A DNA stretch of 31,216 nucleotides. It comes from a virus. A program made the translations under genes and the position numbers. The stretch is from IMG/VR virus record IMGVR_UViG_3300031669_004967, positions 1-31,216 of that record; one strand, given 5' to 3'. How positions within the stretch are numbered: the stretch's first letter is position 1; each line of letters opens with the position of its first letter. The notes below the pieces were generated by a model. The model ran no database searches. It was given only the letters and a program-made list of their open reading frames with translations, and was not told the origin of the DNA. Positions 168 to 27,988 of the stretch are shown one piece after another.

Positions 168-2891
168 ATGAAGTTAGTAGATATGTTGAAAAATGAAGGA
201 CAAAATTTAAAAGATGATATAACTAAAAGAACTGATGCCAAGGAATTATTAATTTCTGCAAAATTTAGTGATGGTCATATCCATCATATCTTACCAGATC
301 AAAAAGTTGCAAAAGAATTAGTAGAGGATATAGCTCCTCACGTCAATCTAGAATTTTCATCAGGTGGACAAGGTTCAACAAAGGATCCTCCCTCTGAGGT
401 TGTATTTCACAATAGACAAGCAATTGGAGATGTATTAACATTTACATCAGCAGTTCGTGATTTTAAAGAAGCATTTCCAAATACAAGGGTCGGAGTAATT
501 TCAACAGCTATGCATATTTGGGATAATAATCCAAATATAGATCATCAGTTTAAAGATGCAGATAAGGTTGTTAAAATAGGTCCAGGTTTTCTTACGAATA
601 AATCAAATTACTGGAATCATCATATGTGTAATGCGTTTCGTTTGGATATTCAAAATAAATTAGGTGTCAAGTTTTTACAGGGACCAATTAGACCTGATAT
701 CTGGATGACAAAAGAAGAAATGCAAAGACCTCCTATTATTGATGGTCCTTATTGGATTTTTATTTATGGAGGTGAACCTGGATGGCCAACGAAGCAATAT
801 CATAGATGGCAAGAAGTTATTAACTGTTTAAGGAATGATATTAAGATTGTACAACTAGGTGTCAAGTCTCATCCATATCCTGTATTAAATGGTGTAGTAG
901 ATTATGTAGGAAAGACAGAAAATAGAGATACTGGTATTCGTGATTTATTTAATATCTTTCTTCATTCACAAGGAAGTTTTGGTCTTGTATCTATGCATAT
1001 GCATCTGTCTGCTGTTTTTGGTAACCCTTGTGTTGTTGTAGCAGGAGGTCGAGAACCAGCATGGTTTACCCACTATTATGGTCATCAATATGTTGAAAGA
1101 AATGGAACCTTGCCCTGTGTACAACATACTGCATGCTGGGCGTGTAAATTAGAAGGATGTAAAAATCTTGTAAGTTTTGAAGATAGAAAAATTCCTAAAT
1201 GTGTTGATATTATTGAACCTGAAGAAATTGCTACAGCAGTTAGAAATTACTATACAGGGGGCAGATTAGAATATGGAAAGAAAATTCCAAACACATTCTT
1301 TAAAAATATTACAGGCGAAAAGAGGGTTTTTGTTGCACCAAAACCTGAAGCTGTTGATGAAGATTTATTAAATAAGTATGGATTTAAATGGGGTGGTGGT
1401 AGTGTAACAGATAGAGATTGGTTATTTATCAGAGATATCTTTAAAAAGTATAATGTAAAAACTGTTATTGAATTTGGTTGTGGTTTGTCAACCTTACTTT
1501 ATAGTACATTAGTTGATAAAGTAATATCATTTGAAACGCAACCTGGATGGATTAAGAAAATTTCTAGTATGATTCCTAAAGATAAAGATGTTAAAATCTA
1601 TCATTGGGATGGAAAGAATTTTAATCTTCCTCTAGGAGAACCAAATAGATTTGATTTTGCATTTGTTGATGGACCCGCCGGAGGACCAAATAGGGAATGG
1701 TCAACGAAAGCTGCGTCAGAATTATCTGACCTTGTTGTTGTTCATGATGCTGGTCGAGTTCCTGAAAGAGAATGGCAGAAAAAACACCTAGAAGGTAAAT
1801 ATACAATGAAATCTAAAGGTGGGCACCGATGCCATTTCTGGGTCAAGAATGAAAGTACAAATCCAGAAATACCAAAGTTAGAGCAACGAGAGATAGCTAA
1901 AATTGATGTAGATACACAGAAACCATTAGCAAGAGTTATTTCCACATGTCGTGGATATGGGGGAAGTGAAAGATCAACTCTCTATATTATGAAAATGTTA
2001 AGAGAAAAAGGTTATAGAGTTGATCTTATATCAACAGGTAACATCTGTACTCCTTATTTAAATGATATACCAGAAGGAGTACGAAAAACAGATTGGTCAA
2101 CAATACAAGAACCTGCTGATGTAACTATACTTTATTGCAGTGATACGATCTGGGGATATCACAAACCACCGTGGACTGATGTTATGCCAACATTAAATAC
2201 TAAAAGAAAGGTTATGGTATTAAACTTTAAAATTGGTGGAGCAGGAAATGTTGAATGGACAAAAGGATGGGATAAGTATATGTTTCTTAGCTCAGAACAC
2301 GAAGGTGAATTATTACAAAGACTTCCAGATGTTAAAACAGTTGTTATGCCTCCACCAACAGATCTTACAGAGTATTTTAAAATCCAACCCAATTATGAGT
2401 TTCCTCTTAGACTTATTAGACATAATTCACAACGCGATGCAAAACATCATCCAAATACAAATACTCATATTAGAGAAGTTTTAAGAATGGATAACTCAAT
2501 TCAATTTCATTACATGCCGGCATTTAGTGAAACATTTGAGCATCCAAATATCTTTAAGTTTAAGGTAAATGAATTGAAGGTTCATGATTTTCTATCTCGT
2601 GGGAACCTGTTCATGTACAAATTGCCTGACTCGTACACAGAGGGCGGTCCAAAAGTGATCCTTGAGGCGATGGCGAGCGGTCTTCCTTGTATAGTTGATA
2701 ACCACTCTGGTCCTAAAGATAGGGTTGATGATAATACAGGTTGGAGATGTGATACGTGGGAAGACTACAAAAGAGTTATTCAAGAGGTTTTAGACAATCC
2801 CCTTCTGTTAAAAATCAAGGGACGTGAAGCTAGAATAAAAGCTAAAAAAGAATTTTTACCTGAACGATGGATTGAGGAGATATTGAAATGA
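168..2891 (+). CDS. Three-domain glycosyltransferase / methyltransferase / glycosyltransferase
   Basis: This 907-residue protein appears to fuse three enzymes. Residues about 70-365 look like a GT-B, GT9-type (heptosyltransferase-like) glycosyltransferase, with the stretch GEPGWPTKQYHRW near 201 and a C-terminal nucleotide-sugar lobe near 275-295. Residues about 400-575 look like a class I SAM methyltransferase, with motif I VIEFGCGLST near 433 and a DFAFVDGPAGG acidic motif. Residues about 595-907 look like a GT4-type glycosyltransferase, with GGSERS near its start and the E-x7-E signature EGGPKVILE at E825 and E833. ATG 168 is preceded by AAAGGA at good spacing. The ATGA overlap with the next gene points to translational coupling. 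It probably builds or caps a glycan in the infected cell; donor, acceptor and target are unknown. Confidence 0.8.
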   Translation: MKLVDMLKNEGQNLKDDITKRTDAKELLISAKFSDGHIHHILPDQKVAKELVEDIAPHVNLEFSSGGQGSTKDPPSEVVFHNRQAIGDVLTFTSAVRDFKEAFPNTRVGVISTAMHIWDNNPNIDHQFKDADKVVKIGPGFLTNKSNYWNHHMCNAFRLDIQNKLGVKFLQGPIRPDIWMTKEEMQRPPIIDGPYWIFIYGGEPGWPTKQYHRWQEVINCLRNDIKIVQLGVKSHPYPVLNGVVDYVGKTENRDTGIRDLFNIFLHSQGSFGLVSMHMHLSAVFGNPCVVVAGGREPAWFTHYYGHQYVERNGTLPCVQHTACWACKLEGCKNLVSFEDRKIPKCVDIIEPEEIATAVRNYYTGGRLEYGKKIPNTFFKNITGEKRVFVAPKPEAVDEDLLNKYGFKWGGGSVTDRDWLFIRDIFKKYNVKTVIEFGCGLSTLLYSTLVDKVISFETQPGWIKKISSMIPKDKDVKIYHWDGKNFNLPLGEPNRFDFAFVDGPAGGPNREWSTKAASELSDLVVVHDAGRVPEREWQKKHLEGKYTMKSKGGHRCHFWVKNESTNPEIPKLEQREIAKIDVDTQKPLARVISTCRGYGGSERSTLYIMKMLREKGYRVDLISTGNICTPYLNDIPEGVRKTDWSTIQEPADVTILYCSDTIWGYHKPPWTDVMPTLNTKRKVMVLNFKIGGAGNVEWTKGWDKYMFLSSEHEGELLQRLPDVKTVVMPPPTDLTEYFKIQPNYEFPLRLIRHNSQRDAKHHPNTNTHIREVLRMDNSIQFHYMPAFSETFEHPNIFKFKVNELKVHDFLSRGNLFMYKLPDSYTEGGPKVILEAMASGLPCIVDNHSGPKDRVDDNTGWRCDTWEDYKRVIQEVLDNPLLLKIKGREARIKAKKEFLPERWIEEILK

Positions 2892-3493
2892 GAAGTTCAT
2901 ATAAAGAGAATAATTATGGTGATGTTTTATTGTCTCTTATAATTGGGAAGAAACCAGAGATGTGTGTGGAGGTTGGAGTTTTAGATGGTTATAGCACTTT
3001 GCATATTGCTCGGGGTCTAAAATTTAATAAAGAAGTATCTGGAGTTGAGGGAAAATTATGGTCCTGGGATTTATGGGATGAATATGAATATAAGCATGGA
3101 AATGAGGATGAGGTTCAAAAATTAATTGATGATGAAGGACTTACAGATTTTGTTAATTTAAGTTCAGGTGATGCATTTGATGTTTCACATATAATTGCAT
3201 CTCGTACAGTTGATTTTCTTCATGTTGATATAAGCAACAATGGAAATATATTAAAGAAAGTTATGAATTTTTGGAGTCATAGATTGAGAGAATGTGGGAT
3301 AATTGCATTTGAAGGGGGAAGCGAAGAAAGGGATAATATTGAATGGATGGTTAAATATCATAAACCTAAGATAAGAGAAGAATTAAAAAATAATAAAATA
3401 ATAAAAGAAGACTTTGGATATTATATAATGTCTGCTTTTCCTTCAATGACAATATTTCAAAAGAAAGGATGTTTAAATGAAATCTATAGATGA
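2888..3493 (+). CDS. Class I SAM-dependent methyltransferase-like protein
   Basis: The 201-residue protein carries a methyltransferase motif I (VEVGVLDGYST) at about residues 27-37 and an acidic strand DFLHVDIS near residue 110, as in the Methyltransf_24-type Rossmann families found in sugar-biosynthesis clusters. Its ATG overlaps the stop of the three-domain gene by four bases, so the two are probably translated together. Its 3' end overlaps the next gene by 17 bases. A sugar or glycan O-methyltransferase role is inferred from context; the substrate is unknown. Confidence 0.65.
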   Translation: MRSSYKENNYGDVLLSLIIGKKPEMCVEVGVLDGYSTLHIARGLKFNKEVSGVEGKLWSWDLWDEYEYKHGNEDEVQKLIDDEGLTDFVNLSSGDAFDVSHIIASRTVDFLHVDISNNGNILKKVMNFWSHRLRECGIIAFEGGSEERDNIEWMVKYHKPKIREELKNNKIIKEDFGYYIMSAFPSMTIFQKKGCLNEIYR

Positions 3494-4112
3494 TTTTCAT
3501 AAGTATTATGAAAAAAATAGAATGTGGGAAAATACAAAATGGTTGGGTATTCCAATTTGGAAATTGCCATTTGATGCATTTGTTATCCAAGAATTAATAT
3601 ATAAGGTTAAACCTGATTATATTATTGAGACAGGAACCGGATTTGGCGGTTCATCAATTTTTTATGCTTCAATTCTGGAGTTGATGTATCATGGTCAGGT
3701 TATAACAATAGACACTGATCATACAAAACTACAACTTTCTATGTGTTATAATTCTGGTGTTCTATCGAGAATAAATTGCGTTACTAGAAATAGTATTGAT
3801 CCTGATATAGTTAAAGTGGTTAGTAGATATGCTACCAATAAACGATGTATGGTTATTTTAGATTCATGGCACAGTTATGATCATGTTTTAAAAGAGATGG
3901 AATTGTATTCACAATTTGTTGCAGTTGGTTCTTATATGATAGTAGAGGACTCACATGTAAGTGGTCATCCAGTGAAATGGGAATATGGGAAAGGTCCTTT
4001 TGAGGCAGTGAAGAAATTTTTAAAAACAAATGATGATTTTGAGATAGATAAAGAATGTGAGAAATTTCTCATGACATTTAATCCCAATGGATATTTAAGG
4101 AAAATAAAATGA
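3477..4112 (+). CDS. CmcI-like (cephalosporin hydroxylase family) methyltransferase
   Basis: The 211-residue protein has the layout of the CmcI/rhamnosyl O-methyltransferase family: N-terminal MWENTKWLGIPIWKLPFD, then the SAM-binding strand IIETGTGFGGSSIFYA near residue 51, ITIDTD near 76, VILDSWHSYDHV near 123 and IVEDSHVSGHP near 156. The D-S-x-H and E-D-S-H residues match the metal and substrate site of that family. Despite the family name, phage and cell-surface members are usually sugar methyltransferases. The start overlaps the previous gene by 17 bases and is preceded by AAAGAAAGGATG, which supplies a binding site. It probably methylates a glycan made by this cassette. Confidence 0.75.
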   Translation: MKSIDDFHKYYEKNRMWENTKWLGIPIWKLPFDAFVIQELIYKVKPDYIIETGTGFGGSSIFYASILELMYHGQVITIDTDHTKLQLSMCYNSGVLSRINCVTRNSIDPDIVKVVSRYATNKRCMVILDSWHSYDHVLKEMELYSQFVAVGSYMIVEDSHVSGHPVKWEYGKGPFEAVKKFLKTNDDFEIDKECEKFLMTFNPNGYLRKIK

Positions 4113-4267
4113 GTTGTCCTACGTGCAAATCAACGGAAATTTACGTATTAGGGACCACGACATCCACAATGGATTCAGGTTGGTTAAAATGTTATTGCTG
4201 CGGTCAGGTTTTTCGAGTTTATAAGGGATATAAAGATGACAGTAAAAACAGTAAAAATCTAAAATAA
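4109..4267 (+). CDS. Mini zinc-ribbon protein (52 aa)
   Basis: A 52-residue frame starts at ATG 4109, overlapping the previous stop in an ATGA junction. It begins MSCPTCKSTEIYVLG and has a second cluster LKCYCCGQVFRVYKG, giving two cysteine pairs (C3/C6 and C28/C30/C31) about 22 residues apart, as in a zinc ribbon. The tail is Lys/Asn/Ser-rich. It fills the space before the aminotransferase gene exactly. A metal-binding fold is likely; the function is unknown. It may bind nucleic acid or stabilise a partner enzyme. Confidence 0.65.
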   Translation: MSCPTCKSTEIYVLGTTTSTMDSGWLKCYCCGQVFRVYKGYKDDSKNSKNLK

Positions 4268-4288
4268 AGGAAATGTAAGGAGATTGAA

Positions 4289-5389
4289 ATGATACCCCTA
4301 TTTAAGGTAATGATGAGTGAGAAGGTACGAGAGCCATTAATTGAAACTTTGTATTCTGGTTATATAGGACAGGGTCCAAAAGTAACTGAATTTGAAATTG
4401 CTCTTTCCAATAAATTTAATAATCCATATGGATTAACAACATCTGCAGGAACACATGCTTTACATTTAGCTTTACGTTTATCTGGAGTTGGACCCGGCGA
4501 TGAGGTTATTACAACCCCTCTAACCTGTACAGCAACAAATTTTCCAATACTTATGCAGGGTGCTGATATTGTATGGGCAGATGTTAAAGAGGATTTTAAC
4601 ATTGATCCTCTTGATGTTGAAAGAAAAATAACCGAAAAAACAAAAGCTATTATTTGTGTGCATTGGGGAGGATATCCCTGTGATATGAAGGAGTTACATG
4701 ATATCGCAGTGAAACATGATATTAAATTAATTGAAGATGCTGCTCATACTTATGGTTCAACTTATTGTAAAACCATTATAGGAGATTGTAAATATTCCGA
4801 CTTTGTAATGATGAGTTTTCAAGCAATAAAACACCTTACAACAGTTGATGGTGGCGTTTTATTTTGTCGAAATTATTCTGATTATGAAAGAGGAAAGCTT
4901 CTAAGATGGTATGGTATTAATAGAGAAAGTTTACGTCGGGATATGAGATGTGAGGAAGAGATTTTAGAATATGGTTATAAATATCATATGAGTGATGTTT
5001 GTGCTACCATTGGTTTATATAATATGAGTTTAGCTGACGAGAATGTTAAGAAGTGTCAAGAGAACGCTATCTACTATAATAAAGAGCTATCTAATATTAG
5101 TGGAGTCAATTTAACTCAAACTAAAGATGATAGAGAGTCATCATATTGGTTATATAGTTTGCTGACGAAAGACAGAGATGGATTTTCAAAAATGATGACT
5201 GATAGTGGTATTCACGTCTCCAAGGTGCACGAGCGAAATGATATACATGCTTGTGTTAGAGATTTTGAGTGTGATAGTTTACCTGTACTAAATTCCATTA
5301 ATAAAGAATTAATATCAATTCCAGTTGGTTCATGGGTGGATGAAGAATCTAGAGAATATATTGCACAGAGAATATCGGAAGGATGGTAA
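4289..5389 (+). CDS. DegT/DnrJ/EryC1/StrS-family sugar aminotransferase
   Basis: This 366-residue, near full-length PLP enzyme would transfer an amino group to a nucleotide-linked keto-sugar. Visible family features are GYIGQGPKVTEFE near residue 24, TSAGTHALHLAL near 51-62, the PLP-ring aspartate in IEDAAHTYGS (D150) and the Schiff-base lysine in MMSFQAIKHLTTVDGG (K181). ATG 4289 follows AAGGAG at six bases. Its presence implies that the glycan contains an amino sugar. No dehydratase that would supply the keto-sugar is seen here, so that step must come from the host or from outside the window. Confidence 0.9.
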   Translation: MIPLFKVMMSEKVREPLIETLYSGYIGQGPKVTEFEIALSNKFNNPYGLTTSAGTHALHLALRLSGVGPGDEVITTPLTCTATNFPILMQGADIVWADVKEDFNIDPLDVERKITEKTKAIICVHWGGYPCDMKELHDIAVKHDIKLIEDAAHTYGSTYCKTIIGDCKYSDFVMMSFQAIKHLTTVDGGVLFCRNYSDYERGKLLRWYGINRESLRRDMRCEEEILEYGYKYHMSDVCATIGLYNMSLADENVKKCQENAIYYNKELSNISGVNLTQTKDDRESSYWLYSLLTKDRDGFSKMMTDSGIHVSKVHERNDIHACVRDFECDSLPVLNSINKELISIPVGSWVDEESREYIAQRISEGW

Positions 5390-8704: not shown

Positions 8705-9817
8705 ATGCTAAGAGATAATATTATAAGGAGTATTAGCGGAAGTAGTAATATCCAATGGAGAGGTTCTTGGTCTGATGGTACTGCTTATATTATAAATGAT
8801 CTAGTTGAGAATAATGGGAATTCTTATATATCAACAATTAATCACACTTCGACAATTAATGATGAACCGGGTGTTGGTGTTAATTGGACATTAAATTGGG
8901 ATTTATTTGCTTCAGGTGGAGCAGATGGATCTGATGGTGCACCAGGTGTGGATGGTGCTGATGGAATTGACGGAGAGAGTTTCACCTGGCGTGGTTCTTG
9001 GTCTATAGATACCACATCTTATCTTATCAATGATGTAGTCTATAACAATAGAAGTTCTTATATTTCAATAAGTGATCATAGTCCGTCATTAGATACTGAA
9101 CCAGGCGATGGAACATCTTGGATAACTGTTTGGAATCTAATGTCGTTGGGTGGTCAAGATGGTATTGATGGTGCAGATGGTATTCCAGGTGCTCCAGGTG
9201 TAGATGGAATAGACGGAGAAGATGGTGCTCCAGGTGTAGATGGTACCGATGGAAGAGATGGAACTTTTACTAGATGTGATCAATTAATTCTTGAAATGGA
9301 GATGGAGTTTAAAACTTCATATCTATGCTACTATAAAACGTTTACATATGATTCTAGCAAACAATTAACTGATATAGATATATGGAGCGATTCTACAGCG
9401 AATGTAAGATTGTTTCATAAAGATTTCTTATATGATTCAAAAAAGAATTTAATTCAGACTGATTTAACAAGAATTTCAGATGGAGCATTATTAACAAGTA
9501 TATTTAATTATAATTCTTCTAAACAGTTAATATCAATAGAAAGAACAGGATATTGTTCTTGTAGTTCTAGTAGCAGTTCGATATCAATTTCTTCATCATC
9601 TCAATCTATTAGCTCAAGCTCAAAATCTAGTTCAAGTTCTGTCTCATCTAGTTCAAGCTCAAGTTGGAGTTCAAGTTCATCATCTATTTCATCAAGCAGT
9701 AGATCAAGCAGTTCAATTTCAAGTTCAAGTAGTTCTGTAATTTTTGAGATGGTGAGAATTATACATAGTGGAGAAGAGAGAATAACACATGATGGAGATT
9801 TAAGGTTACTATATTAA
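8705..9817 (+). CDS. Fibre-like protein with carbohydrate-binding, collagen-like and poly-Ser regions
   Basis: 370 residues in a modular order. Two related modules (about 16-70 and 93-150) each start WRGSWS and continue YxIND-V-x-NN-x-SYIS...EPG-G, which resembles CBM5/12-type carbohydrate-binding modules. Each is followed by a collagen-like Gly-x-Asp/Pro repeat (about 73-92 and 152-187). A YD-repeat-like region (about 200-280) has YDSSKQL, YDSKKNL and YNSSKQL. A Ser-rich stretch of about 60 residues (about 284-344) precedes a short charged C-terminus ending GDLRLLY. Collagen-like repeats in phage fibres usually trimerise. The protein is probably an adhesion or side fibre. The Ser stretch may be a flexible linker or a glycosylation substrate, since the glycan cassette lies immediately upstream. 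Confidence 0.65.
   Translation: MLRDNIIRSISGSSNIQWRGSWSDGTAYIINDLVENNGNSYISTINHTSTINDEPGVGVNWTLNWDLFASGGADGSDGAPGVDGADGIDGESFTWRGSWSIDTTSYLINDVVYNNRSSYISISDHSPSLDTEPGDGTSWITVWNLMSLGGQDGIDGADGIPGAPGVDGIDGEDGAPGVDGTDGRDGTFTRCDQLILEMEMEFKTSYLCYYKTFTYDSSKQLTDIDIWSDSTANVRLFHKDFLYDSKKNLIQTDLTRISDGALLTSIFNYNSSKQLISIERTGYCSCSSSSSSISISSSSQSISSSSKSSSSSVSSSSSSSWSSSSSSISSSSRSSSSISSSSSSVIFEMVRIIHSGEERITHDGDLRLLY
9188..9243 (+). repeat. Direct repeat in collagen-like coding region
   Basis: The 20-base unit GGTGCTCCAGGTGTAGATGG occurs exactly at 9188-9207 and 9224-9243, with near copies at about 8936-8955. It encodes GAPGVDG units of the collagen-like region. Such repeats can expand or contract and so change fibre length. 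Confidence 0.7.
9551..9736 (+). repeat. Low-complexity Ser-coding tract
   Basis: An imperfect AGTTCA/AGCTCA hexamer-like tract encodes about 60 residues, nearly all Ser, broken by single Ile, Gln, Lys, Val, Trp and Arg residues. Both Ser codon families (TCN and AGY) alternate. Exchanging one family for the other needs two base changes, so Ser itself may be under selection, although expansion of an AGTTCA unit would also produce this pattern. Confidence 0.75.
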
Positions 9818-20521: not shown

Positions 20522-22486
20522 TTGTTTACAGTAGACAACTTTTGGGACATATTATCTGCGGCAAGTGGAGACACTGTAGCTGGTATGACTAATGTTCTCG
20601 ATTCTCTTGCTAAAGATTCTAAAGCAAAAGCTGGATTGTATTTTGACTTTGTTCTTGGTGGAGCTCCTCCTAGTAGTTCAGATGACTGGTTACGTTTGAG
20701 AAGTTTTTTACTTGATTGGTATGCAGCACATCAAACCATTGCTTCTGCAAGTTCTAAAATAACAAATGTTGAAACTCTTTCTAATCCTGATCTTGATGAA
20801 TTATTTAGAAGTTTTGGTTTTAATCATTCTACACAATTAAAAGGACCTGACGATAATCCTATTGATTTAAAAATTAATTTCTTTTTAGATCTTGTTAATT
20901 TATATAAGAGAAAAGGAACACCACAAGCAATAGTTGAAGTATTACAATATTATGGTGTTACAAAAGTAGATATATATGAATTTTTTATAAAATTAGAAGC
21001 AGTGGACTCTTTAATTTTTGAAGGAACTGCAATTGCTGGAACAACAACAAATCCTTCCAAACTTACATTTGATTATGATAGATTAACTGCTAATGATCCT
21101 CACTGGTTATATACTCAAGATCAAATATTACAACTTCAACAAATAAATGATATTAACTTACCATCTAAAACTCCTTATTTGGGAATTCGTCCAGTAGCTT
21201 CAATTGATGGTCCTGAAATTGGAATTCTTATAAGACTTGTACAAGATCAATTTCAATATTATTTAGATAATGGTGTAGTCCCAACAGCTAATGCTGAAGT
21301 TAGTGAAATAGGTGAAGTTGTTTCTTTATTAGAACTTTATTTATCAATCGTATATTTATTTAATAAACAATACAACGTTGGTCAAACTGGAGATAGTTTT
21401 ATATGCTATGATGGAACTTCAGTAGCAAATGTCACTGATATAATAGATGAGTTTGAAATTGCAACTGCTAGACCAATAGATAGATCAGGAATTATATCTG
21501 GTCTTACAACATTTTATGATGGATTTACGAGAGAGAATCCAAGAAACTTTTTACAAAATAGATTAGATGCTGAAATGTTTCTTACATTAATAAATCCTTC
21601 ATTGAAGAGTGCATTAGATTCTACCACATTAACAGATTCGGAGTTAATGTTTAGTTTAATGAAAGACCTTTCATCTTGGGTTCGTATCAACCTTGGATAT
21701 GGTTTTGTTAATATGGGTTTTATTATGTTTGGTATAGATTCATTCTTTGAGGATCTTAAACCTGTTATTAACTTTTTCAAACCATATAGAGCAAGATTAT
21801 TATTACTTGAGTTGTTACAAATTGATAACCCTTTATTTAATACGATTATTGTAGAGGATTATGCTGAAACTCCAAGAGTAGAATTTCCTATTTATGATTG
21901 GGTAACAGGAGATGGTAATCCTTGCTGTACACATGAGAATATTGATGCAACTGATAGTTGTACAATTTGTTTGAATGATTCAACTACCAGTTTATTTTAT
22001 CAAAGAGAAACATATGATTGTGATTCTTATTTTGATATTGGTGCTGTAACAGATATAAGACAGACTGATTTCTTTCCATTTATAGAGGAAATTCGATATA
22101 TAAGATTAGTATGTATCCCACCAGATTTCGATTCAACTGCTATTGTTTATAATGAGGTAACAGGAGGTGAGCTAATTGCTGATGGCACATCTACATTGGT
22201 AGTAGATAGTACGTCTGTAGGAATCATTGCTGAACCACGATGTACAGATTCTACAGATGTACTGTTAATATATACACATCCTTCTTTTGAAGGGTGTTCA
22301 GATTCAACAAATTATATAGTTTTGTATGAGGAAGTTACGACTGGAGGATTTGCAAATTTTGATGAACCCGGTACGTTTGATTGTATGTCGGGATTTGATC
22401 AAGCTAGGATACAAATACAGGTTCTTGCTAGTAGCTCATCAAGCTCTGTCTCTTCATCTAGTAGTTCAAGTTCCAGTTCTTTATAG
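20522..22486 (+). CDS. Baseplate/tail protein, P2 gpI-like, with Cys-rich C-terminus and poly-Ser tail
   Basis: The 654-residue protein starts at TTG 20522, supported by GAGGAGA seven bases upstream. A segment at about 126-146 (LYKRKGTPQAIVEVLQYYG) matches the KGTP-x-A hallmark of phage tail protein I-type baseplate proteins. Helices with repeated Asp/Leu follow. Beyond about residue 465 lies a Cys-rich region (GNPCCTHENIDATDSCTICL, ETYDCDSYF, PSFEGCSDST), possibly metal-binding or disulfide-bonded. The last about 18 residues are nearly pure Ser. That tail echoes the 8705 fibre gene. Probably a wedge or fibre-attachment component, larger than the usual P2 gpI. Confidence 0.65.
   Translation: MFTVDNFWDILSAASGDTVAGMTNVLDSLAKDSKAKAGLYFDFVLGGAPPSSSDDWLRLRSFLLDWYAAHQTIASASSKITNVETLSNPDLDELFRSFGFNHSTQLKGPDDNPIDLKINFFLDLVNLYKRKGTPQAIVEVLQYYGVTKVDIYEFFIKLEAVDSLIFEGTAIAGTTTNPSKLTFDYDRLTANDPHWLYTQDQILQLQQINDINLPSKTPYLGIRPVASIDGPEIGILIRLVQDQFQYYLDNGVVPTANAEVSEIGEVVSLLELYLSIVYLFNKQYNVGQTGDSFICYDGTSVANVTDIIDEFEIATARPIDRSGIISGLTTFYDGFTRENPRNFLQNRLDAEMFLTLINPSLKSALDSTTLTDSELMFSLMKDLSSWVRINLGYGFVNMGFIMFGIDSFFEDLKPVINFFKPYRARLLLLELLQIDNPLFNTIIVEDYAETPRVEFPIYDWVTGDGNPCCTHENIDATDSCTICLNDSTTSLFYQRETYDCDSYFDIGAVTDIRQTDFFPFIEEIRYIRLVCIPPDFDSTAIVYNEVTGGELIADGTSTLVVDSTSVGIIAEPRCTDSTDVLLIYTHPSFEGCSDSTNYIVLYEEVTTGGFANFDEPGTFDCMSGFDQARIQIQVLASSSSSSVSSSSSSSSSSL
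22430..22483 (+). repeat. Second poly-Ser-coding tract
   Basis: The final codons of the baseplate gene alternate AGC/AGT with TCA/TCT/TCC and encode SSSSSSVSSSSSSSSSSL. The composition copies the tract at 9551-9736. It is C-terminal here, so it cannot be a linker within this protein. Confidence 0.7.
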
Positions 22487-22684: not shown

Positions 22685-22697
22685 AGTTTAGAAAAAA

Positions 22698-22752
22698 AAG
22701 AGAAGTGATATAAGGTTAAAACAATCGAATATAATATTTTGTCACTTCTCTT
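22698..22752. terminator. 11-bp hairpin with 33-base loop
   Basis: AAGAGAAGTGA (22698-22708) pairs perfectly with TCACTTCTCTT (22742-22752). On the plus strand no U-tract follows; an A-run lies just before the 5' arm, so on the minus strand it ends in U residues and could terminate minus-strand transcripts. It may also be the 5' boundary of the structured RNA just downstream. Confidence 0.45.
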
Positions 22753-22800: not shown

Positions 22801-22926
22801 TCAGAGCAGGAGAGATCATCCTTACTGGGATAGAGTCCGGAGATGATCGCTCCGAATACCCCCACCAGCATAGGTCTCCTGCTCTGAAGTCGGAGCGCAT
22901 AGTTTTATAAAAAACAGCGCAACTCC
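22801..22926 (+). ncRNA. Structured RNA candidate with predicted pseudoknot
   Basis: The outer stem TCAGAGCAGGAGA (22801-22813) pairs perfectly with TCTCCTGCTCTGA (22875-22887). Stacked on it is GATCATC (22814-22820) with GATGATC (22842-22848), which encloses CTGG/CCGG (22825-22828/22837-22840). The loop segment CGCTCCGA (22848-22855) is fully complementary to TCGGAGCG (22890-22897) outside the outer stem, which would form a pseudoknot. The same 3' segment can instead pair with GCGCAACTCC (22917-22926), giving a competing hairpin. No protein frame or tRNA features fit, and I recognise no known riboswitch, intron or ribozyme core. The strand is assigned from neighbouring genes. It could be a leader element, a small RNA or an operator RNA. 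Confidence 0.55.
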
Positions 22927-22972
22927 TACCTTATCAATTATTTATATATATAGCAGAATCGTATTTAAATAA

Positions 22973-23006: not shown

Positions 23007-23044
23007 ACTGACTTTAAGCAAATCCGAGGTCTTAGTCAGTGACC
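23007..23044 (+). promoter_or_regulatory. Leader with two alternative hairpins before a strong ribosome site
   Basis: ACTGACT (23007-23013) can pair with AGTCAGT (23034-23040), or GGTC (23028-23031) can pair with GACC (23041-23044); the two exclude each other. The structure ends five bases before AAGGAGG at about 23051-23057, so it could affect translation of the next gene. Pairing is visible; regulation is inferred. Confidence 0.35.
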
Positions 23045-23064
23045 TGTTAAAAGGAGGAAGTAAA

Positions 23065-23847
23065 ATGACATATAAAGATCAGTTAGTAGCAGAACTCAAA
23101 TTGAATGGTAAAATTCTTCGAATAAAGGATGATACTGTTTACCTACCTTTTGGATCAGAGTATTCCATATTATTAAAAAATTTGAATACTCGTAGAGCAT
23201 CCATTAAAATTGAAATTGATGGGCAGGATGTTTTAGACAATAATGCTTTAGTCATTGATCCAAATACAACCACTGAATTGTCTGGTTTTTTGAAAGGAAC
23301 AACAGCTAGGAATAGATTTAAATTTATTCAAAAAACAAAACAAATTCAAGAGCATCGTGGCGATAAGATTGAAGATGGTTTTATAAGAATTGAATTTGCA
23401 TTTGAAAAACCAGTTGCTGAACCCTGGATTGTTAAAACTATTAATGAAGTACACCATCATTATGATAGTCCTATTAAGTATACTCATTATGGTTCTGTAG
23501 GAGATTGGACTTACAATTCAAGTGGAGATGCTGATAGATCAGTAATAAGAGGTATGTCTGATATTAGATCATTTAATTGTAATGTTGAAGATCTTGGAGT
23601 AACACCTGCCCAGGATGAAGGAATTACTGTAAAAGGATCTCAAATTAATCAGGATTTTAATTATACTTCAATGGGTAAATTAGAGGATCCAAAAGTTATA
23701 ATTATTAAACTTTGCGGTTTAACAAATAGTGGTGGTCAAGTTAATCAACCATTAACTATCAAAGCTGTACTTACGTGTTCTATTTGTGGAACAAAGTCCA
23801 AATCATCAGCTAAGTATTGTTCTAATTGTGGAACTTTTTTAGAATAA
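23065..23847 (+). CDS. Structural-region protein with C-terminal zinc ribbon
   Basis: 260 residues. The N-terminal about 115 residues are beta-rich (KLNGKILRIKDDTVYLPFGSEYSILLKN...ASIKIEIDGQDVL...TELSGFLKG...FIRIEFAFEKP), a pattern seen in uncharacterised phage and bacterial proteins. A His-rich stretch VHHHYD lies near residue 130. The last about 25 residues form a zinc ribbon (TCSICGTKS...KYCSNCGTFLE, CxxC/CxxC). An AAGGAGG site precedes ATG 23065. Function unknown; position before tail genes suggests a virion or assembly role. Confidence 0.6.
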   Translation: MTYKDQLVAELKLNGKILRIKDDTVYLPFGSEYSILLKNLNTRRASIKIEIDGQDVLDNNALVIDPNTTTELSGFLKGTTARNRFKFIQKTKQIQEHRGDKIEDGFIRIEFAFEKPVAEPWIVKTINEVHHHYDSPIKYTHYGSVGDWTYNSSGDADRSVIRGMSDIRSFNCNVEDLGVTPAQDEGITVKGSQINQDFNYTSMGKLEDPKVIIIKLCGLTNSGGQVNQPLTIKAVLTCSICGTKSKSSAKYCSNCGTFLE

Positions 23848-27041: not shown

Positions 27042-27551
27042 TTAATCGAGTTCGGTAATTTCGATTAAGGTTCTCTGTCGATCTAATTCAATATCATCCA
27101 ATATTAAAAGATTTTTAATAACACTTTCCATATAATATTTACCATTCTGAATTAGAGGAAAGATATTGACTATATGAATGGTTATATCCAATTCTCCTTT
27201 TTCAATGGTGTGAATAAATTTTTTAAATCCTTCCCTTTTATTACTAGGATATGTTAACTCTTCAAAACTAAATCTCTTGAATGAAGTAACTACTAATCCT
27301 AATTCATCAAGACACATTAAATATGCAGCTGCAGAAGCTACTGCTTGTATTTCTCGTTGATAATTTTCTGCTAATATTGCTGAAATTCTAAGATAACCTG
27401 TTGTTTTAATAACTGCATTTGTCTTGTTAATTATTTCAAGAGAAATAAGTTTGGGATAATCAAAAATACCCATTCTTTCTCGCATTGTCATGTGATCTTC
27501 AATAATAAAATCTTCTGGTATACCAACAAAGTCTGTTATATGTATACCCAC
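27042..27551 (-). CDS. Uncharacterised minus-strand protein
   Basis: 169 residues read from GTG 27551, six bases after GAGGA; an in-frame stop lies just upstream, so the start is firm. The sequence is alpha/beta-like (PKLISLEIINKTNAVIKTTGYLRISAIL, QREIQAVASAAAYLMCLDELGL, LDITIHIVNIFPLIQNG) without signal peptide, membrane segment or known catalytic motif. It is one of only two minus-strand genes in the window, convergent with the tail sheath across a shared terminator. Accessory (moron-like) status is inferred; function unknown. Confidence 0.55.
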   Translation of the reverse strand: MGIHITDFVGIPEDFIIEDHMTMRERMGIFDYPKLISLEIINKTNAVIKTTGYLRISAILAENYQREIQAVASAAAYLMCLDELGLVVTSFKRFSFEELTYPSNKREGFKKFIHTIEKGELDITIHIVNIFPLIQNGKYYMESVIKNLLILDDIELDRQRTLIEITELD

Positions 27552-27577
27552 AGTAATTCCTCATTTCTTATGATCAT
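27536..27577 (-). CDS. Possible 13-residue leader peptide overlapping the 169-aa gene
   Basis: On the minus strand GAGGAATTACT occurs twice, at 27588-27578 and 27562-27552, each followed directly by a start codon (ATG 27577, GTG 27551). The first start gives MIIRNEELLWVYI and stops inside the 169-aa gene. The duplicate initiation region may regulate translation by overlap, or be a neutral short duplication. Confidence 0.25.
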   Translation of the reverse strand: MIIRNEELLWVYI

Positions 27578-27642
27578 AGTAATTCCTCTTTTTCAATGTT
27601 AATTTATTTAAAACCCAATTGAACAACTGGTTGAATCTTTAA

Positions 27643-27894
27643 TTAATTTTTTTCTAAAGTATTAATGGGTAAGTTTGATTTTGGTTTAATAAATTCTTTA
27701 TCTTTATAATAATCATTGTAATAAAATATTCGTTGAACTGCTGATATTATAACTAAGGCAAGTAAGAGAGGTCTGTTTATAAATAGAAGCAATAAAATAG
27801 GAATTGCTAAAATTAATACTCTGTTTATCTCATTAGTTTCATCCCATTTTTGATTAGCTTCTTGTAATACATACTTAAGTTTTTCATAAATCAT
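27643..27894 (-). CDS. Small membrane protein, minus strand
   Basis: The 83-residue protein has an N-terminal amphipathic part (MIYEKLKYVLQEANQKWDETNEI), then one long or two short hydrophobic helices at about 24-54 (RVLILAIPILLLLFI, PLLLALVIISAVQRIF) and a charged tail. AGGAGG on the minus strand lies seven bases before ATG 27894. It is first in the two-gene minus-strand unit. Inner-membrane location is likely. Possible roles are superinfection exclusion or lysis modulation, without direct evidence. Confidence 0.6.
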   Translation of the reverse strand: MIYEKLKYVLQEANQKWDETNEINRVLILAIPILLLLFINRPLLLALVIISAVQRIFYYNDYYKDKEFIKPKSNLPINTLEKN

Positions 27895-27956
27895 TTTATC
27901 CTCCTAAATTATGGGTTAAAAATATAGAAATGATCATCTTTCAATTATTAATATAT

Positions 27957-27966
27957 ATAGATCTAT
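27957..27966. promoter_or_regulatory. Palindromic intergenic site between divergent genes
   Basis: ATAGATCTAT is a perfect 10-base palindrome in the gap between the minus-strand unit (start 27894) and the divergent plus-strand HAD gene. Another, ATGATCAT, is at 27930-27937. They could be operators, but short AT-rich palindromes arise easily by chance. Confidence 0.2.
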
Positions 27967-27988
27967 TTTTTTAAACGAGATGTGGTCA

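Follow-up and report, generated by a model that had tools for sequence, protein, structure and literature searches.

Judged by comparative sequence analysis, a small pseudoknotted RNA is encoded in the tail-gene region of an uncultivated phage with a contractile tail; the tail genes themselves are on the other strand. The RNA lies in the window (the whole stretch of DNA analysed, a 31,216-base uncultivated virus record, IMGVR_UViG_3300031669_004967), and its base pairs have been kept through paired mutations in about 25 related viruses. The compact pseudoknotted RNA that an initial annotation of this DNA had placed in a phage tail region is borne out by strong covariation in relatives, while its strand, its 3' boundary and its inner stems had to be redrawn. 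It is tentatively proposed that the RNA is a stable stand-alone molecule acting in trans.

Lineage, copies and database searches

The window phage is a contractile-tailed, uncultivated phage of a myovirus lineage, and the identity of its sheath to those of cultivated phages is at most about 31%. Relatives were gathered by scanning viral contigs with the sheath and with the protein encoded downstream of the element (23065-23847), which gave about 85 related loci. Copies of the RNA were found by BLAST, by covariance model R1 and by a pseudoknot descriptor; 30 copies have exact coordinates, all from this one lineage. Two degenerate patterns run against all of IMG/VR hit contigs of the same lineage only, among them three new ones (L106, L111 and L114) with the same tail genes. 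BLAST of the element DNA against cultivated phages returned AT-rich chance matches only. A sheath scan of GTDB genomes yielded one relative, L136 (DAOVGR010000059.1), a contig binned as a Thermoplasmatales MAG that did not match covariance model R1. Misbinning of this contig is possible, as is an archaeal host for the lineage. Genes of glycosyltransferase and sugar-aminotransferase type occupy positions 168-5389 of the window, and long serine-rich runs are located at or near the ends of two tail-region proteins (9500-9817 and 22430-22486).

At the gathering threshold Rfam 15 recognised nothing on the element in the window or on the copies in the contigs of 12 relatives, a search that covered both sequence groups. 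Permissive searches gave weak sub-threshold matches only, to miRNA or other RNA models; the match to MIR529 (E 0.008, 20.9 bits against a cut-off of 75) is not credible. A tRNA and tmRNA search of the whole window found none. The element itself showed no ARAGORN cloverleaf and no RF00005 match, in agreement with the initial annotation, which had seen no tRNA here. Within the window record the only repeats of the element are the P1 arms themselves, and searches of the open-licence literature showed no such RNA family. The new class of phage RNA envisaged at first stands as a new family, but one confined, as far as searched, to a single uncultivated lineage.

Architecture and covariation

On the minus strand the fold has an outer stem P1 of 13 bp with two further stems inside it, P2 of 4 bp and P3 of 5 bp; a pseudoknot of 6 bp joins the P3 loop to the P2'-P1' linker (Table 1). 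The order of the strands is P1 P2 P3 PK P3' P2' PK' P1'. Conserved internal loops read UGGRG, CYUAUC and UAA, with variation across sequence group 2. P1 is the perfect 13-bp inverted repeat already noted in the initial annotation, and the high GC content noted with it was also found (56% in 22806-22895, most of the flanks having 24-33%). The covariance model gives the window element 104 bits, the window being one of the sequences from which the model was built.

Table 1 Features of the RNA, its transcript and neighbouring RNAs (window coordinates unless a contig is named)
Feature	Position	Strand	Basis
Type A element, the 87-nt core of the structured RNA (5' end 22887)	22801-22887	-	Covariance model, copies in relatives, covariation
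P1 5' strand, 13 bp with 22801-22813	22875-22887	-	All cells paired in 13 sequences
P1 3' strand	22801-22813	-	Inverted repeat, covariation
P2 5' strand CUGG, partner 22825-22828	22865-22868	-	100% paired
P2 3' strand CCAG	22825-22828	-	Covariation
P3 5' strand CGGAG, partner 22838-22842	22850-22854	-	96.9% paired
P3 3' strand CUCCG	22838-22842	-	Covariation
Pseudoknot 5' strand GAUCAU, within the 7-nt P3 loop	22843-22848	-	100% paired
Pseudoknot 3' strand AUGAUC, P2'-P1' linker	22814-22819	-	Covariation
Upstream hairpin, same minus transcript	22892-22926	-	Predicted fold; not found in L004/L005
Probable promoter motif, TTWATATATATAG on plus = CTATATATATWAA on minus	22941-22953	-	Motif count against shuffles
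Remnant ribosome-binding site GGGGGTG and ATG, then immediate TAA	22764-22786	-	Sequence
Probable intrinsic terminator, hairpin and T8	22692-22752	-	Inverted repeat, sequence
tRNA-like RNAs	L007 directly after 5308; L118 after 4032; L119 2082-2150	-	Fold
Second RNA-like unit	L132 about 1750-1960 (two copies); L009 about 5165-5240	-	

On the evidence of compensatory changes that keep its pairs, such as the initial annotation had suggested looking for in related phages, the element is a structured non-coding RNA. In an alignment of 13 relatives trimmed to P1, 99.4% of the cells at the 28 pairs hold standard pairs. There are 83 double-change cells, and 23 of the 28 pairs are changed on both sides, compared to 12.7 in shuffles; none of 500 shuffles matched the pairing, double-change or covariation scores of these sequences. 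Pairing fell to 42-57% when partners were slid by 1-3 columns, a control that is somewhat favoured because the alignments were made by MAFFT without structure and the structure was read from the same sequences; the double-change count is the stronger fact. An alignment of 11 sequences has 94.9% of its cells paired and both-sided change in 23 of 28 pairs. Both sides are altered in 12 of the 13 pairs of P1 (across 13 sequences) and in 4 of the 5 pairs of P3. P2 occurs among the relatives as CUGG/CCAG, UCGG/CCGA, UCAG/CUGA and CCAG/CUGG, and the pseudoknot as GAUCAU/AUGAUC, GGUCAU/AUGACC, GGUUAU/AUAACC, GGUUAC/GUAGCC and GGUUGC/GCAACC. Not one of 3000 shuffled versions of the element showed the complete conserved architecture, and at GC of at least 20 the window has it once, on the minus strand. 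It was recovered in 27 of the 30 copies, including the very diverged L042, L025 and L087. The window has minus-strand frames of 35 aa and 41 aa. The alignments show stops or indels that interrupt the 35-aa frame in L004, L005, L060, L073 and L122, and no conserved open frame, as expected of a protein-coding gene, was found.

Folding energy alone cannot give the strand, since the fold beats shuffles on both (0 of 200 shuffles as good; z -4.4 on the plus strand and -4.8 on the minus strand). G·U cells, however, far outnumber A·C cells (27 against 4), and the RNA is therefore assigned to the minus strand. The initial annotation had read a plus-strand RNA with a pseudoknot between CGCTCCGA and TCGGAGCG and a switch between two states, which is now almost certainly wrong. 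Its pairings are present in this one sequence: the 8-bp complementarity of CGCTCCGA (22848-22855) and TCGGAGCG (22890-22897) exists. It is not a conserved pseudoknot, however, as L004 and L005, the nearest relatives, lack TCGGAGCG, and the plus-strand fold was rejected. Compensating G·U pairs are found on the minus strand only, and P2 and P3, the true inner stems missing from the earlier reading, covary and occupy the same bases. The two-state switch was rejected as well. Its supposed competitor, GCGCAACTCC, is an arm of a separate, non-conserved hairpin upstream in the minus transcript. The 7-bp pairing GATCATC/GATGATC, within a 12-nt, 92% repeat, does exist, yet it forms the true pseudoknot and not an inner stem. 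The element ends at 22887 instead of extending to 22926.

Operon and settings of the copies

In most relatives a short minus-strand operon lies between two plus-strand tail-region genes. The operon genes are small and differ among phages; they include zinc-ribbon-like and pilin-like proteins as neighbours of the RNA, and Pfam searches of the operon proteins mostly gave no match, apart from PilX_N and N_methyl, which matched two of them. In L004 (4612-4758) and L025 (5733-5912) the same minus operon encodes small, basic and glycine-rich proteins of the type MPGRDGKGPKGGGPRDGRG, that of L025 without a Pfam match. The element is located at or near the 3' end of this accessory operon, commonly 3-40 nt past the last stop codon (about 12 nt in L060, 9 nt in L061, 3 nt in L026 and 4 nt in L083) and a few nt from the convergent plus-strand gene.

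The motif TTWATATATATAG/CTATATATATWAA is present in the divergent region of most relatives. The window holds exactly two copies (the second at 27948-27960) while 100 shuffles hold none, and both adjoin the starts of the two minus-strand units; the motif is therefore probably their promoter. The second copy lies between a minus-strand gene pair (27042-27894) and the plus-strand gene at 27982. Between the first copy and the element no protein gene is left in the window, and where the window has a remnant ribosome-binding site L004 and L005 have a small ORF of the MPKRDG type. P1 of the window copy has no U-tract (TTTTAAAA) and a separate, probable terminator is found downstream. The window still has the promoter motif, the RNA and the terminator, and no shared coding frame. 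As the genes of the operon are gone while these three are kept, the RNA itself is probably the product.

P1' runs into at least 6 U in 18 of the 30 copies, and P1 can therefore act as a terminator; the other 12 are without a U-tract. Separate terminators were found further downstream in L007, L118, L131, L132 and L135. L126 and L127 carry a plain terminator hairpin at the corresponding site and no element. The copy of L106 is flanked on both sides by co-directional genes, and in L132 two copies form a tandem. In L131, P1' adjoins a tRNA-Arg(CCG) without spacer (element 4158-4238, tRNA 4084-4157), and in L007, L118 and L119 a tRNA-like RNA follows 0-2 nt after the type A element, which is shortened in L119. 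These tRNA-like RNAs fold as cloverleafs with acceptor, D and T arms, but their anticodon loops are only 4-5 nt long. Type A elements of L132 and L009 are accompanied by another repeated RNA-like unit (GTGAGTCCNGAWTGGGNTAATGC..CCCGAATTAGA..CGCTCAC), whose pattern was found in no other contig of IMG/VR. An apparent coding C-terminus in L009 (YVSPDWVNAIPN) was rejected, being part of this repeat common to L132.

Another pseudoknot, of H-type, is located on the plus strand of the window at 23007-23045 (ACTGACT/AGTCAGT and AGGTC/GACCT) and precedes the ribosome-binding site of gene 23065-23847 by a few bases. About 38 contigs have kept it, and in 31 sequences it covaries, with 37 double-change cells and pairing in 99.7% of all cells; a search in the window gave no Rfam match. 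This pseudoknot is likely a translational operator or regulator of the virion-region gene.

Candidate functions and known RNAs

Because of the 12 copies without a U-tract, the separate terminators and the tandem, intercistronic and tRNA-adjoining copies, an RNA acting in trans was ranked first among the possible functions, followed by a 3'-end stabiliser or terminator, a ribozyme and lastly a 5'-UTR regulator. The first of these is our best guess and it is put forward with reserve. The window operon would have lost its proteins, and its promoter would make a transcript of ~245 nt with this RNA as the sole conserved content. The pseudoknot closed by P1 would form a compact nuclease-resistant body that accumulates as a stable small RNA, acting in trans most likely via a putative protein partner that reads the pseudoknot and the three internal loops. 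The frequent fusion with a U-tract would make the RNA its own terminator. The adjoining tRNAs and tRNA-like RNAs of some relatives suggest that it might be released by 5'-tRNA processing (RNase P). Conceivably, it plays a role in the same cargo as these RNAs, possibly as a decoy against host RNA-targeting defence. One study connects alterations in the anticodon loops of phage tRNAs with escape from tRNA-targeting defence (PMC10264068). A bolder version, which we regard as doubtful, is a new trans-acting class of phage RNA, carried as cargo with tRNA-like RNAs whose anticodon loops have shrunk to 4-5 nt and countering RNA-targeting defence of the host as a decoy or inhibitor, or else a new self-cleaving ribozyme that processes the cluster.

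Against a role in trans count the restriction of the RNA to one lineage and the short minus-strand frame that is open in about half of the group-1 copies. The 18 U-tract fusions among the 30 copies and the plain hairpins at the site in L126 and L127 would fit a pure 3'-end function, as does the position of the element close behind the stop codon of the last minus gene in many contigs. The RNA would then be an elaborate 3' end without function in trans, in which P1 and the U-tract terminate the operon and the pseudoknot shields the mRNA from exonucleases. This is somewhat unlikely, given that 12 copies have no U-tract, several of them with another terminator downstream. It is also at odds with the copies that stand in tandem or between genes, with the conservation of unpaired internal-loop bases and with the retention of the element in the window, where no gene lies upstream. 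In 18 of the 30 copies the GC-rich stem with 6 or more U behind it resembles an intrinsic (Rho-independent) terminator; however, the interior is 61 nt long, structured and covarying, not a small loop. Regulation in cis of the small ORF in L004 and L005 (MPKRDG/IPKKDG type), with the element as a riboswitch or protein-binding leader in the 5'-UTR, is the least probable of the four. The ribosome-binding site GGAGG/GGGGGTG some 15-30 nt past P1' in these two contigs, with its remnant in the window, is consistent with such a leader, but behind most copies comes a U-tract, a tRNA or a convergent gene instead of an ORF, and the ORF of the window is ATG-TAA.

A small self-cleaving ribozyme with the general shape of twister, trimming the 3' end of the operon or the 5' leader of a tRNA, is improbable. 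Twister RNAs have stacked stems P1-P2-P4 with internal loops, and their terminal loop pairs with the P2'-P1' linker. The three stacked stems of the element, its loop-to-linker pseudoknot and its conserved internal-loop bases recall this topology. The conserved bases themselves differ between the two, the internal loops vary within group 2, and neither the twister model nor any other Rfam ribozyme model matched the window or the contigs of the 12 relatives. Furthermore, the single 6-bp pseudoknot of the element uses up the loop, whereas twister has a double pseudoknot (PMC10226581). The zero or near-zero gap to the 5' ends of tRNA and tRNA-like RNAs in L131, L118, L119 and L007 would suit a processing ribozyme, with a precedent in the theta (HDV-like) ribozymes of gut phages, which sit at phage tRNA 3' ends (PMC10879173). 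Like these, the element is a small pseudoknotted RNA beside phage tRNA genes, but it lies 5' of the tRNA, not 3', has a different stem crossing and no Rfam match, and most copies are without a neighbouring tRNA. The HDV order is a nested double pseudoknot in which P1 crosses P2, with P3 and P4 between; the strand order of the element does not fit it, and membership of the HDV-like or theta ribozymes was rejected. Twister is nearest in shape and theta nearest in setting, and the element probably belongs to neither.

Phage mimics of ToxI-type RNAs exist (PMC3475682). ToxI-type RNAs consist of repeats of about 36 nt beside a toxin gene; no such gene was noticed beside the element. The element shares with ToxI-type (type III toxin-antitoxin) RNAs the small pseudoknot, the tandem arrangement in L132 and the phage context, but it is a larger unit, closed by P1, and has no Rfam match. 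With phage tRNAs and tRNA-like RNAs it has the 3' cluster and the strand in common, but it is not a cloverleaf, is without CCA and is recognised as tRNA by neither ARAGORN nor Rfam.

These results add a pseudoknotted RNA family with good support, 30 members and a covariance model that works, from a lineage without close cultivated relative. In the window the RNA seems to be the sole conserved product that remains of the operon. That it recurs next to tRNAs, tRNA-like RNAs and terminators where the cargo operon ends makes a testable case for phage RNAs that are products themselves.
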